A model generated the notes under the pieces. That model did not search any database and was not told where the DNA came from. It worked only from the letters and a program-made list of their open reading frames with translations. From contig NZ_JMKS01000005.1 of assembly GCF_000685865.1 (NCBI RefSeq), forward strand, positions 310,001 through 374,000: a stretch of DNA of 64,000 nt. Reading direction: 5' to 3'. Below are positions 41,284 through 64,000 of the stretch, in pieces. The stretch's first letter is position 1. The number at the start of each line of letters is the position of its first letter. Made by a program: the position numbers and the translations under genes. Origin of the DNA: Exiguobacterium antarcticum DSM 14480. Lineage in GTDB: Bacteria; Bacillota; Bacilli; Exiguobacteriales; Exiguobacteriaceae.

Positions 41284-41305
41284 CAGTCGATGATACAGGC
41301 GGCGG

Positions 41306-41410
41306 ACTCAAAAGTCATTTTTACAGAGAACAGTGTGGTGGATTAAAATCTGCCACACTGTTCTTGTCTAGGAAAAAATCACTTGGTTCACGCGACTCGT
41401 GCAGGGAAAG
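41306..41410 (+). repeat. Truncated copy of the structured intergenic repeat
   Basis: Aligns with the left part of the element at 63161-63403. It shares ACTCAAAAGTCAT, a 15-bp hairpin (41327-41341 with 41350-41364), and a block ending CGACTCGTGCAGG against CAACTCCTACAGG. The right-hand terminal repeat is missing. The hairpin sequence differs from the other copy but remains paired. It lies 23 bp after the transporter stop and could end its transcript. Confidence 0.7.
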
Positions 41411-41467
41411 GGGATTACCTTTGGGTTAACCCCTTTTCGTTTGGTCGTCGCTCTATCAAATTGATTG

Positions 41468-61069: not shown

Positions 61070-61816
61070 ATGCAACGATATTTCGTCGAACAGACCGCAC
61101 GTGCGGGAAACACCTTTACACTGTCAAAAGACGACGCCCATCATATGAAAAACGTCATGCGGATGGATGTCGGTGATGAGATTTTAGTGTTGGACGGAAC
61201 AGGACTGTTTCGTTGCCGACTTGAGCAGCTCGAAAAGCAAACGGCCGTCGCGGAAATGATTGAAGAATTGCCAATCGAGACGGAACTCCCGATCCACGTG
61301 ACGATTGCTTATGCGTTACCGAAGGGTGATAAGATCGAACTCGTGGCACAAAAAGCGACCGAACTTGGAGTTCATCAACTACTTGTTTTTGAATCGGCCC
61401 GTTCTGTCGCCAAATGGGACGCCAAAAAAGTTCCGAAAAAGCTGGAACGACTCGAAAAAATCGTCAAAGAAGCAGCAGAGCAATCATACCGGGCGCACTT
61501 GCCGACGGTTGAGTATGTGACGTATGATGAAGTCCTACAAAGTACTACTGATTATACGGCGTGTCTGATTGCCTATGAAGAATCGGCGAAAGAAGGGGAG
61601 GCGTCAGCCTTCGCTTCTACGCTGTCGCGGCTTCAGTCCGGCGACTCCTTATTGGTTGTGATTGGTCCGGAAGGTGGACTGACGGAAACAGAAGTAACGC
61701 GTTTAACCGCTGGTGGTTTCGTGCCGGCATCACTCGGACGACGGATTTTACGGACGGAAACGGCACCACTCTATGTCCTGTCCGCCGTATCGTATCATTT
61801 TGAATTGAAAGGGTGA
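61070..61816 (+). CDS. rsmE: 16S rRNA m3U1498 methyltransferase RsmE
   Basis: 248-aa SPOUT methyltransferase. N-terminal PUA-like domain (MQRYFVEQ, DDAHHMKNVMRM) and knotted SAM site VIGPEGGLTETEV with C-terminal LGRRILRTETAPLYVLSA. ATG at 61070, 4 bp after prmA; the frame stays open upstream inside prmA but that part has no family match. Confidence 0.94.
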   Translation: MQRYFVEQTARAGNTFTLSKDDAHHMKNVMRMDVGDEILVLDGTGLFRCRLEQLEKQTAVAEMIEELPIETELPIHVTIAYALPKGDKIELVAQKATELGVHQLLVFESARSVAKWDAKKVPKKLERLEKIVKEAAEQSYRAHLPTVEYVTYDEVLQSTTDYTACLIAYEESAKEGEASAFASTLSRLQSGDSLLVVIGPEGGLTETEVTRLTAGGFVPASLGRRILRTETAPLYVLSAVSYHFELKG

Positions 61817-61821
61817 GTGAA

Positions 61822-63156
61822 ATGGCAACTGTTGCCTTTCAAACGCTTGGTTGTAAAGTCAATCATTACGAGACAGAAGCCGTCTGGCAACTGTTCAAGG
61901 ATGCGGGATATGGACGTGTTGACTTTGCAAATCATGCCGACGTTTATGTCGTCAATACATGTACAGTAACAAATACGGGCGACAAAAAGAGCCGCCAAGT
62001 CATCCGACGGGCCATCCGTCAAAATCCAGACAGTGTCATCTGTGTCACCGGTTGTTACGCCCAGACATCTCCCGCTGAAATCATGGCGATTCCCGGGGTC
62101 GATGTCGTCGTCGGGACGCAGGACCGGCACAAGATGATTGGTTACATCGAACAATTCCGCGAAGAACGGATGCCGATCAACGCCGTCGGTAACATCATGA
62201 AGGCAAAAGTCTACGAAGAACTCGACGTCCCGGCATTTACGGACCGGACGCGGGCTTCTCTGAAGATCCAAGAAGGTTGCAACAACTTCTGTACGTTTTG
62301 CATCATTCCTTGGGCACGCGGTCTGATGCGTTCACGTCAACCGGAAGATGTCTTGAAACAAGCACAACAACTAGTGGATGCGGGCTATAAGGAAATCGTC
62401 CTGACCGGTATTCACACGGGCGGTTACGGGGAAGACCTCAAAGACTATAACTTGGCGAAATTGTTAAAAACGCTGGAGTCCGTGACAGGTCTCGAACGGC
62501 TTCGGATTTCTTCGATTGAAGCGAGTCAAATCACAGATGAAGTACTGGACGTCTTAAAAGATTCGCCGATCGTCGTCCGGCATCTCCATGTTCCGATTCA
62601 ATCGGCATCGGATACGGTCTTGCGCCGGATGCGCCGGAAATACACGATGGCGGAGTTTGGTGAACGGATTACTCGCTTAAAAGAAGTCTTGCCGGATTGT
62701 GCGATCACGTCTGACGTCATCGTCGGTTTCCCGGGGGAGACGGAAGAAGAGTTCATGGAGACGTTTAACTTCATCAACGATCACAAGTTCAGCGAACTGC
62801 ATGTCTTCCCGTATTCGAAACGGACCGGAACACCGGCTGCGATGATGGAGGATCAAGTGGATGAACACGTGAAAGAACAACGTGTCGCTCGGTTGATTGC
62901 CTTATCGGATCAACTGGCGAAAGAATATGCTTCGAAATACGAGGGAGAACTGCTTGAAATCATTCCGGAAGAATTTTCGGAAGAAGCAGGGGGTCGTCTC
63001 GTCGGCTATACCGACAATTACTTACGTGTCGCGATCGAAGGGGACGAATCATTGATTGGTCAACTCGTTCGTGTCAAAATCACTAAAGCGGGTTATCCGA
63101 TGAACGACGGACAATTCGTCCGCGTCATGGAGACATTAAAAGAACAAGCGATCTGA
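61822..63156 (+). CDS. mtaB: MtaB, tRNA t6A37 methylthiotransferase
   Basis: 444-aa radical SAM enzyme adding a methylthio group to t6A37. N-terminal UPF0004 domain with three Cys (LGCKVNHYE, NTCTVTN, TGCYAQ), radical SAM motif CNNFCTFC, and a C-terminal TRAM domain. ATG at 61822 lies 8 bp after AAAGGG; an in-frame GTG at 61813 overlaps the rsmE stop. The structured repeat starts 4 bp after its stop. Confidence 0.94.
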   Translation: MATVAFQTLGCKVNHYETEAVWQLFKDAGYGRVDFANHADVYVVNTCTVTNTGDKKSRQVIRRAIRQNPDSVICVTGCYAQTSPAEIMAIPGVDVVVGTQDRHKMIGYIEQFREERMPINAVGNIMKAKVYEELDVPAFTDRTRASLKIQEGCNNFCTFCIIPWARGLMRSRQPEDVLKQAQQLVDAGYKEIVLTGIHTGGYGEDLKDYNLAKLLKTLESVTGLERLRISSIEASQITDEVLDVLKDSPIVVRHLHVPIQSASDTVLRRMRRKYTMAEFGERITRLKEVLPDCAITSDVIVGFPGETEEEFMETFNFINDHKFSELHVFPYSKRTGTPAAMMEDQVDEHVKEQRVARLIALSDQLAKEYASKYEGELLEIIPEEFSEEAGGRLVGYTDNYLRVAIEGDESLIGQLVRVKITKAGYPMNDGQFVRVMETLKEQAI

Positions 63157-63160
63157 AATG

Positions 63161-63403
63161 GGGGCTGACTCAAAAGTCATCCTCTACAAAGATAAGGGTG
63201 GCAGAATAATAATCTGCCACCCTTATCTCGTAAAAAAAAGAATTACTCGTTACACGCAACTCCTACAGGAAAAAGCGCATTTTTGCGCTGTCAGAGACAA
63301 ACAAGACCAGCTTTCCTGCCTGAATGAGGCAGGAAAACTGGCTTGTGTCTCGCCTGAGGAAAGGGCGTGAAAAGACGAGTAATTCTTTTTTTGAGTCAGC
63401 CCC
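63161..63403 (+). repeat. Full-length structured intergenic repeat with terminal inverted repeats (MITE-like)
   Basis: 243 bp without a credible gene. Ends GGGGCTGACTCAAAA and TTTTGAGTCAGCCCC are a perfect 15-bp inverted repeat. Inside are a 15-bp hairpin (63190-63204 with 63214-63228), a second long inverted repeat (about 63234-63250 with 63375-63391), a small hairpin (63274-63279 with 63284-63289) and a long interrupted hairpin (63294-63351). A truncated relative lies at 41306-41410. The ends recall those of IS1182-type transposons as I remember them. It may also terminate mtaB. Confidence 0.82.
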
Positions 63404-63427
63404 TTATTTTTGGAGTGACAAATTATT

Positions 63428-63493: not shown

Positions 63494-64000
63494 ATGCGAA
63501 TCAATAAATTCATCAGTGAAACAGGATATTGTTCCCGGCGGGCTGCCGATAAATTAATCGATGCCGGACGTGTGACGATCAACGGAAACGTGGCCGAGCT
63601 CGGCTCGCAGGTCGAAAAAACAGATGCCGTCGAGATTGATGGACAACCGTTACAAGCGAAGCCGGAGCTCGAGTATTTGATCTTAAACAAACCGGTCGGG
63701 ATCACGTGTACGACAGAGCGTGACATCGAAGGCAACATCATTGATTTCGTCAATCATCCGAAACGGATTTTCCCGATTGGGCGACTCGACAAAGATTCCG
63801 ATGGATTGATCATCTTGACGAACGATGGGGATATCGTCAACCGGATTTTACGGGCGGAAAACAACCACGATAAAGAATACATCGTAACGGTCGACGCACC
63901 GATTACGGAAACGTTCATCGAAGGTATGGCGAGCGGCGTCGACATTCTTGGAACGACGACGAAGGAATGTGTCGTTGAACAGCTCGAGTCGCGGACGTTC
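63494..64000 (+). CDS. rluF: 23S rRNA pseudouridine synthase, RluF-type (3' end cut by window)
   Basis: The first 169 codons are present. N-terminal S4 RNA-binding domain (MRINKFISETGYCSRRAADK), then the RsuA-type catalytic domain with nucleophile Asp in GRLDKDSDGLIILTNDGD. The run ILRAENNHDKEYIVTVD and VDFVNHPKRIFPIG, the latter as IDFVNHPKRIFPIG here, match RluF rather than RluB. The C-terminal part lies beyond the window. Confidence 0.88.
   Translation, partial: MRINKFISETGYCSRRAADKLIDAGRVTINGNVAELGSQVEKTDAVEIDGQPLQAKPELEYLILNKPVGITCTTERDIEGNIIDFVNHPKRIFPIGRLDKDSDGLIILTNDGDIVNRILRAENNHDKEYIVTVDAPITETFIEGMASGVDILGTTTKECVVEQLESRTF

Follow-up and report, generated by a model that had tools for sequence, protein, structure and literature searches.

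Introduction

Directly behind mtaB, Exiguobacterium antarcticum DSM 14480 carries a 243-bp stretch made of nested inverted repeats. What is this element, and how did it come to stand at the end of this gene? We addressed this question starting from a 64,000-nucleotide stretch of the genome (the window). An initial annotation, made from the letters of the window alone, offered three readings: a miniature inverted-repeat transposable element (MITE) mobilised by an IS1182-like transposase, a terminator or a structured RNA.

Transposition into hairpins is known from staphylococci. IS1272, a member of the IS1182 family, and TnSha1, which is moved by it, are reported to target hairpins, including terminators confirmed by RNA-seq; part of the stem-loop is deleted without duplication, and one target was entered in both orientations (PMC4923244). 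A model of stem-loop-replacing transposition has been proposed for IS1272 (PMC5678879). We found no description in the literature of the 243-bp element, of any Exiguobacterium IS1182 MITE or of the structured core that the element contains. Among the short interspersed repeats of Bacillales, the bcr repeats of the Bacillus cereus group are comparable to the element, the likeness being one of description alone.

In this study, we present comparative evidence that the element is very probably a non-autonomous MITE of the IS1182 family, which would move by stem-loop replacement and is predicted to supply its own terminator. Moreover, we describe its inner core, which recurs in other Bacilli.

Anatomy of the 243-bp element

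The element was initially placed 4 bp after the mtaB stop, which is correct: the stop codon ends at 63156 and the element starts at 63161. The features of the locus are as follows (positions in the window).

61813..63156, plus strand: mtaB, tRNA t6A37 methylthiotransferase, upstream gene (NCBIfam TIGR01579, 466.9 bits, cut-off 357)
63161..63403, plus strand: whole mobile element (putative MITE), 243 bp (repeat copies and replaced 31-bp palindrome)
63161..63175, plus strand: left terminal inverted repeat GGGGCTGACTCAAAA (exact repeat)
63166..63179, plus strand: small left-end hairpin TGACT-CAAA-AGTCA (read from the sequence)
63190..63228, plus strand: subterminal hairpin with 16-bp arms, 63190-63205 and 63213-63228 (fold)
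63233..63249, plus strand: inner 17-bp inverted repeat, left arm (sequence and fold)
63247..63377, plus strand: structured core ACTCCT ... GGAAAG, a Bacilli-wide repeat family (covariance model R1, 131.7 bits, this copy itself being in the R1 training set)
63274..63289, plus strand: core hairpin AGCGCA/TGCGCT (fold)
63306..63342, plus strand: core hairpin with variable tip (fold)
63376..63392, plus strand: inner 17-bp inverted repeat, right arm, with a T run at its end (sequence)
63389..63403, minus strand: right terminal inverted repeat (exact repeat)
63404..63411, plus strand: T-rich tract, remnant of the replaced native terminator (same tract 3' of the native hairpin in L031 and L032)
63494..64000, plus strand: rluF-like pseudouridine synthase, downstream gene, leaving the window (NCBIfam NF007784, 341.4 bits taken on the full gene in L001, cut-off 318)

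The architecture proposed initially largely holds. The 15-bp terminal inverted repeats are perfect, the second inverted repeat measures 17 bp, and two more hairpins inside it give a multi-branched fold; the first hairpin is present, with arms of 16 bp and not of 15 bp. The plus strand of 63150-63420 folds at -142.1 kcal/mol (z -15.7, equalled by 0 of 200 shuffles) and the opposite strand of the element region at -143.0 kcal/mol (z -16.9). Exact copies of the 15-bp end motif in the 64-kb window are confined to the element's own two ends, and up to 3 mismatches yield five matches, 1.6 being expected. A decayed relative of the element lies at 41299-41420 of the window, with a left end GCGGCGGACTCAAAA, the subterminal hairpin and the start of the core.

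The element was said to hold no plausible gene, and we agree. Its only sizeable frame (70 aa, 63158-63370) has its ATG start outside the element and matches no NCBIfam family, and this frame is open over at least 60 codons in just 8 of 26 full-length copies. A protein-coding relic was rejected on these grounds. Seen by eye, the outer stem and the TTATTTTT T tract have the layout of an intrinsic terminator; a simple terminator scan, which allowed loops of 3-8, listed no plus-strand terminator at the element, while the two core hairpins do figure in its list.

Replacement of a terminator hairpin at the window site

The same intergenic place was located in KRL4, E. undae, RIT594 and E. sibiricum (L031-L034), and each of them holds an ordinary terminator there. 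KRL4 reads TGAAATG-AGTTCGTCTTCCGGTTACCGGAAGACGAACT-TTATTTTTGG, the middle being a perfect 31-bp palindrome. This palindrome is also present in E. undae, which together with KRL4 is the nearest named relative; RIT594 and E. sibiricum have related hairpins of other sequence. In the window the 31-bp palindrome is missing and the element stands between TGAAATG and TTATTTTTGG, without target duplication. The reading as a terminator is thus retained as a consequence of the insertion, in that the element stands where relatives have a terminator hairpin and is itself predicted to terminate.

Fourteen sites followed into relatives

Fourteen sites of the same genome (G000) were followed, each into up to four relatives. 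Eight belong to the 243-bp family and six to a sister family, which has identical ends and a different interior (e.g. C5:182548-182912, C5:544647-545019). We called a site clean if at least one relative holds a hairpin where G000 holds the element, with the A-rich and T-rich flanks retained and no duplication. Nine of the 14 sites are clean, three are suggestive and two have no usable empty site. In the 243-bp family, C5:373161 (the window copy), C3:1791751, C5:622030 and C3:1704057 are clean; C5:748852 and C3:1687756 are only suggestive because their right ends have decayed, and C3:1073259 and C3:905951 are without a usable empty site. In the sister family five sites are clean (C3:223517, C3:928030, C3:1009965, C5:182548, C5:544647). 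The sixth, C5:49697, is suggestive: the hairpin of the relatives is framed by an A tract and a T tract in the same way, the wider flanks are unalignable, and the closest genome, G012, shows no hairpin there, with another IS close to the end of a contig (L261). The terminators at L278 and L285 were read by eye, the automatic hairpin finder having chosen wrong ones.

C5:622030 illustrates the outcome. A relative reads GAAGAA-[31-bp hairpin]-TTCTTTTG, G000 reads GAAGAA-[element]-TTCTTTTG, and the outer pairs of the old stem remain and now lengthen the element's own stem. The initial annotation had advised looking for flanking target duplications. Comparison with the relatives revealed none at the nine clean sites; instead, the target hairpin is replaced. 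The native hairpins that were lost are unrelated in sequence.

The surroundings of the copies give the same picture. In 40 end-bearing copies, taken from both families, A makes up 61% of the 10 positions preceding the element and T 61% of the 10 following it; the 134 shifted controls, drawn from the same loci, give 26% and 24%. At least three further pairs beyond the ends were found in 23 of these 40 copies and in 2 of the 134 controls; the window copy has none. From other genomes we fetched the 26 best-scoring full copies; in 25 of them an ORF stop faces the element within 80 bp (the exception is L196, without a stop in that range), as compared to 233 of 1040 control points from the same loci.

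Flanks rich in A and T would also be expected from an ordinary cut-and-paste MITE that makes short target duplications and prefers intergenic A/T-rich DNA. Such an element would not account for nine clean sites that lose a hairpin without duplication, nor for outer flanks that pair with each other as the halves of an old stem would do, and we regard it as very improbable.

Different elements may meet at one target. At C3:928030 the same terminator is occupied by the sister family in G000 and by the 243-bp family in G008, while other genomes have the bare hairpin. Four pairs of full copies share a site, and two of them are in opposite orientation (L200/L223, L201/L217); inversion in place is possible for the latter pair, since its members are 98.3% identical. 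Four sites (C5:373161, C5:622030, C3:223517, C3:928030) are filled in G000 and empty in G012, with matched flanks 86-95% identical. Movement is therefore recent on that scale.

Copies and forms across Exiguobacterium

Pieces of the element are present in all 19 Exiguobacterium genomes, 12-63 per genome by blastn, with 49 in G000; these piece counts are not copy numbers and include reverse-strand matches of the hairpin arms. In G001 we counted at least 24 near-full copies among the matches listed. Compared over about 240 bp, full copies from different loci have 82-95% identity to the window copy; among themselves they reach up to 98%. Besides the full 240-bp form there are shorter copies without the first hairpin, core-only copies and the sister family. 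A plasmid or phage origin was considered and rejected, as blastn gave no match.

At two loci, L116 (C5:532634) and L132 (C6:37013), bare 24-bp terminators occur which read GGGGCTGACTCAAAAGTCAGCCCC or nearly so. They consist of the end hairpin without any interior and are an extended form of the element's small left-end hairpin. They would result from full copies by deletion between AGTCAG repeats near both ends. The one at C5:532634 may have evolved in place: four relatives hold other terminators there, two of which (L286, L287) are loosely similar in sequence.

These bare hairpins and the loosely similar terminators are what one might expect if the whole element were a native terminator grown in place by hairpin expansion, without transposition, and the element does stand exactly where the relatives' terminator stands. 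Against this, copies at different loci resemble the window copy at 82-95% identity, whereas the native hairpins they replaced are unrelated; furthermore, no intermediate lengths at one site were seen among the relatives fetched. Growth in place has an even smaller chance of being right than cut-and-paste movement.

Two copies, L141 (C3:1073259-1075196) and L142 (C5:622030-623964), have been invaded by one two-ORF IS, which sits at an almost identical inner position in both; a remnant lies in C5:445704-446377. Either this is a preferred landing place or a composite has moved. The 1.7-kb insert is apparently of IS150/IS3 type, according to our reading of its ORFs. We had considered these loci (C3:1073259, C5:622030) as an autonomous element composed of the MITE and the insert, and rejected this, because the insert is an IS in its own right, with two ORFs, which inserted into the element.

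Possible IS1182-family partners

Genome G000 has six full IS1182-family genes (NF033551), none of which has the element's ends. Five of the six copies (L161-L165) form one group, group A. Four of these (L161, L163, L164, L165) each have an entire copy of a terminator hairpin on either side, and L162 is without the left copy; for L165, two relatives have an empty site with a single hairpin copy. Hairpin duplication at L161 and L163-L165 is the opposite outcome to replacement, within one family and one genome. The sixth copy, L166 (ends GAGGCTGGGACATAACT), occupies the place of a hairpin that is retained in G012.

A transposase with the same ends was a further check advised by the initial annotation. 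An autonomous IS with exactly the element's ends was not found; the closest counterpart is an IS1182-family IS in G005 (L298-L300) with ends GAGGGTGACTCA. One of its ends agrees with the element's 15-bp end at 13 of 15 bases and the other at 12, i.e. they differ at 2 or 3 bases. The G005 IS is about 2.05 kb long and encodes a 527-aa DDE transposase with the IS1182 domains PF05598, PF13751 and PF01609; those copies with both ends in view extend to contig ends. Its left part of about 175 bp is 74-79% identical to the sister MITE family, and its subterminal region contains the core (78.9 bits). By blastn, only the sister family matches this IS, and not the 243-bp family; the core common to the 243-bp family and the IS was found by model R1. 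The G005 IS resembles the element in end type and subterminal core and differs from it in its length and its transposase.

The G005 transposase is 36-37% identical to those of L166 and L170 and 24% to that of L161. The element's ends probably belong to the hairpin-replacing branch of IS1182, because the G005 transposase is nearest to L166/L170 and L166 replaces a hairpin. Group A has the same transposase family as the G005 IS and L166, and it shares with the element the preference for terminator hairpins and, as a weak match in its leader, the core. Unlike the element, it has other ends and duplicates the whole hairpin (4 of 5 copies).

The parentage of the sister family by interior deletion from an IS1182 element is suggested by the 74-79% identity over about 175 bp. 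In its interior, the 243-bp family shares with the G005 IS only the core; judged by its ends, it is an IS1182-type MITE. The proposal of a MITE mobilised by an IS1182-like transposase is supported at the level of sequence by repeat number, ends and empty sites, and by an IS1182 relative whose ends are similar and whose left part is homologous to the sister family. More distantly, the ends of an IS1182 copy on a Paenibacillus plasmid, GGGGCTGTCCCAAAAGTCA, agree with the element at 17 of 19 bases. In the Paenibacillus IS1182 copies L374 and L375 the left inverted repeat is directly followed by its inverted copy, so that a terminator hairpin is already in place ahead of the transposase.

Short, hairpin-rich and intergenic, the element could also be likened to REP repeats moved by an IS200/IS605-type (RAYT/TnpA) transposase, and nine of the 19 genomes do have Y1 transposases. 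The remaining ten give no match to Y1 (PF01797), and all of them carry the element; a DDE element is also the better fit to inverted repeats that are perfect at both termini and to an IS1182 IS whose ends are similar. Of all the explanations considered, we give this one the least credence.

A model of movement by stem-loop replacement

We propose that a transposase supplied in trans would join the ends of the element to a target palindrome at its base; in most cases this target would be the intrinsic terminator hairpin behind a gene. That a DDE transposase acts on these ends follows from the family; the supply in trans, the strand chemistry and the recognition of a cruciform or hairpin would complete the model. 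The palindrome would be lost, the A-rich and T-rich flanks would remain, and no target duplication would arise. The GC-rich inverted-repeat ends of the element and the left-over T tract would then form a new terminator. The element is expected to terminate because these ends now abut the T tract, and since it would be the new terminator, such insertions should be nearly harmless.

As reported, IS1272 and TnSha1 agree with the element in targeting a hairpin or terminator, in deleting part or all of the stem without duplication and in following no sequence consensus (PMC4923244, PMC5678879). Both orientations at one target are published for them; for the element they amount to the two flipped pairs among four, with the reservation of inversion in place. 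IS1272 is 1,945 bp long and carries its transposase (PMC5678879), and TnSha1 also carries fabI, whereas the element has 243 bp and is non-coding. The element further differs from IS1272 by its 12-63 pieces per genome across the genus and by its structured core, which is absent from the IS1272-like Exiguobacterium copies searched.

Insertions of IS1272 and TnSha1 in staphylococci provided the description of hairpin-replacing transposition; in the present case it is seen throughout a genus and with a tiny non-coding element. Since near-full copies number at least 24 in a single genome (G001) and relatives offer empty sites, many natural events are available for studying the reaction. Moreover, one genome has two branches of IS1182 transposases, one replacing and one duplicating hairpins, which makes cut polarity directly testable. 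If the element also terminates transcription, it would be a parasite that mends its own damage and re-wires gene ends. The element is best accounted for as a hairpin-replacing IS1182 MITE, a carrier of the known IS1272-like type, whose core deserves separate study.

The structured core

Forty cores were aligned for covariance model R1. The selection pattern required ACTCCT, GG and GGAAAG, and these columns are therefore invariant by choice; the pattern did not force the remaining conserved columns, nor most of the pair counts. In this alignment 94.5% of cells are paired, and 17 of 27 pairs have two-sided changes. Cells with such changes number 129, whereas shuffles give 34.7 and slid controls no more than 38. 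The initial annotation had mentioned an ACTCCT core scattered through Bacillales. Among 151 Bacilli genomes from 81 genera, model R1 indeed finds it (E <= 0.001) in 32 genomes and 17 genera, counts which are lower bounds (at most 22 candidates scored per genome) and which include four genomes of Exiguobacterium, the main training genus of R1; the Bacillus sequence L088 was also in the training set. Occurrence in one copy per genome, lack of conserved pairing and a decayed gene had been named as observations that would speak against a mobile or structured element, and on all three points the opposite was found. Rfam 15 contains no match to core or element above the gathering score, and a search by E-value gave only matches far below it.

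More distant cores, 16 among the matches listed, have a shorter form, e.g. GACTCCTGCGGGA...GAGACCCC...GGCTC...GCCCGCGGAAAGCGAG. At L009 (about 1702-1808) and L211 (about 1717-1823) a shorter core of the Bacillus type (ACTCCTGCGGG ... CCCGCGGAAAGCG) adjoins a core of the long type; both forms therefore coexist in Exiguobacterium.

Cores also accompany transposases elsewhere. We searched 30 IS1182 transposase loci in core-bearing genomes of other Bacilli; at six of them a core lies at a distance of 83-140 bases from the match to the transposase. With at least 131 cores in about 49 Mb of these 15 genomes, the number expected in the 100 kb searched is about 0.3. Each of the six loci is a fragment, and a core is missing from all seven loci whose transposase scores over the family cut-off. 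Group A copies (L161-L165) show a weak match in the leader (about 20.9 bits). No core was detected in the IS1272-like Exiguobacterium copies searched, nor in the Paenibacillus/Cytobacillus IS1182 copies L374-L376, and because of these the core seems dispensable for hairpin replacement as such. As a guess, it may shield the IS against transcription entering from its surroundings, or serve as a recognition structure.

Nine core-bearing copies of G000, among them C3:1188178, were followed into relatives. Six have the core at the same place there, with C1:108442 partly kept. At five quantified sites solo cores are kept at 94-100% identity, which exceeds that of both 60-bp flanks in 8 of 11 comparisons; local alignment of cores and global alignment of flanks favours the cores. 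At C3:1687756 the left end of the copy has decayed and relatives show a hairpin in its place, and the core at C3:630369 is absent in both relatives fetched. Core-only copies as a separately mobile family were rejected, six of the nine being kept in place and C3:1687756 being a decayed end-bearing copy.

Could the whole element then be primarily a structured RNA, i.e. a functional non-coding RNA with the ends as its terminator, the copies having been duplicated and selected? Covarying pairs, solo cores kept at orthologous sites and occurrence in 32 of 151 Bacilli genomes would suit this view. It accounts poorly for the window and the other end-bearing sites, where relatives have a palindrome in place of the element, as expected from mobility, or for copies at one site that vary in orientation; the core is also found inside an IS, and Rfam has no match. 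We judge it unlikely as an account of the element, though less so than the other alternatives considered. As a reading of the inner core, a structured RNA is possible.

A more far-reaching idea, which we put forward only tentatively and hold to be rather doubtful, combines the IS1182-type MITE with such a role. The core (P1-ACTCC/GGAAAGCG-P2, multi-branched, with an AGACCC/GGCT inner motif) would be a structured nucleic-acid module of Bacilli, so far undescribed, that is carried and scattered by IS1182-type elements and kept by their hosts, with solo copies that outlast the transposon and preserve pairing and loop letters across species. It might work at gene ends, in RNA 3'-end processing, transcript stability or insulation. 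If this were true, hairpin-replacing transposons would be a delivery system for 3'-end regulatory parts. At the ortholog of C5:731295, the solo core of G012 lies on the strand opposite to that in G000 and G004 (L310 compared with L311).
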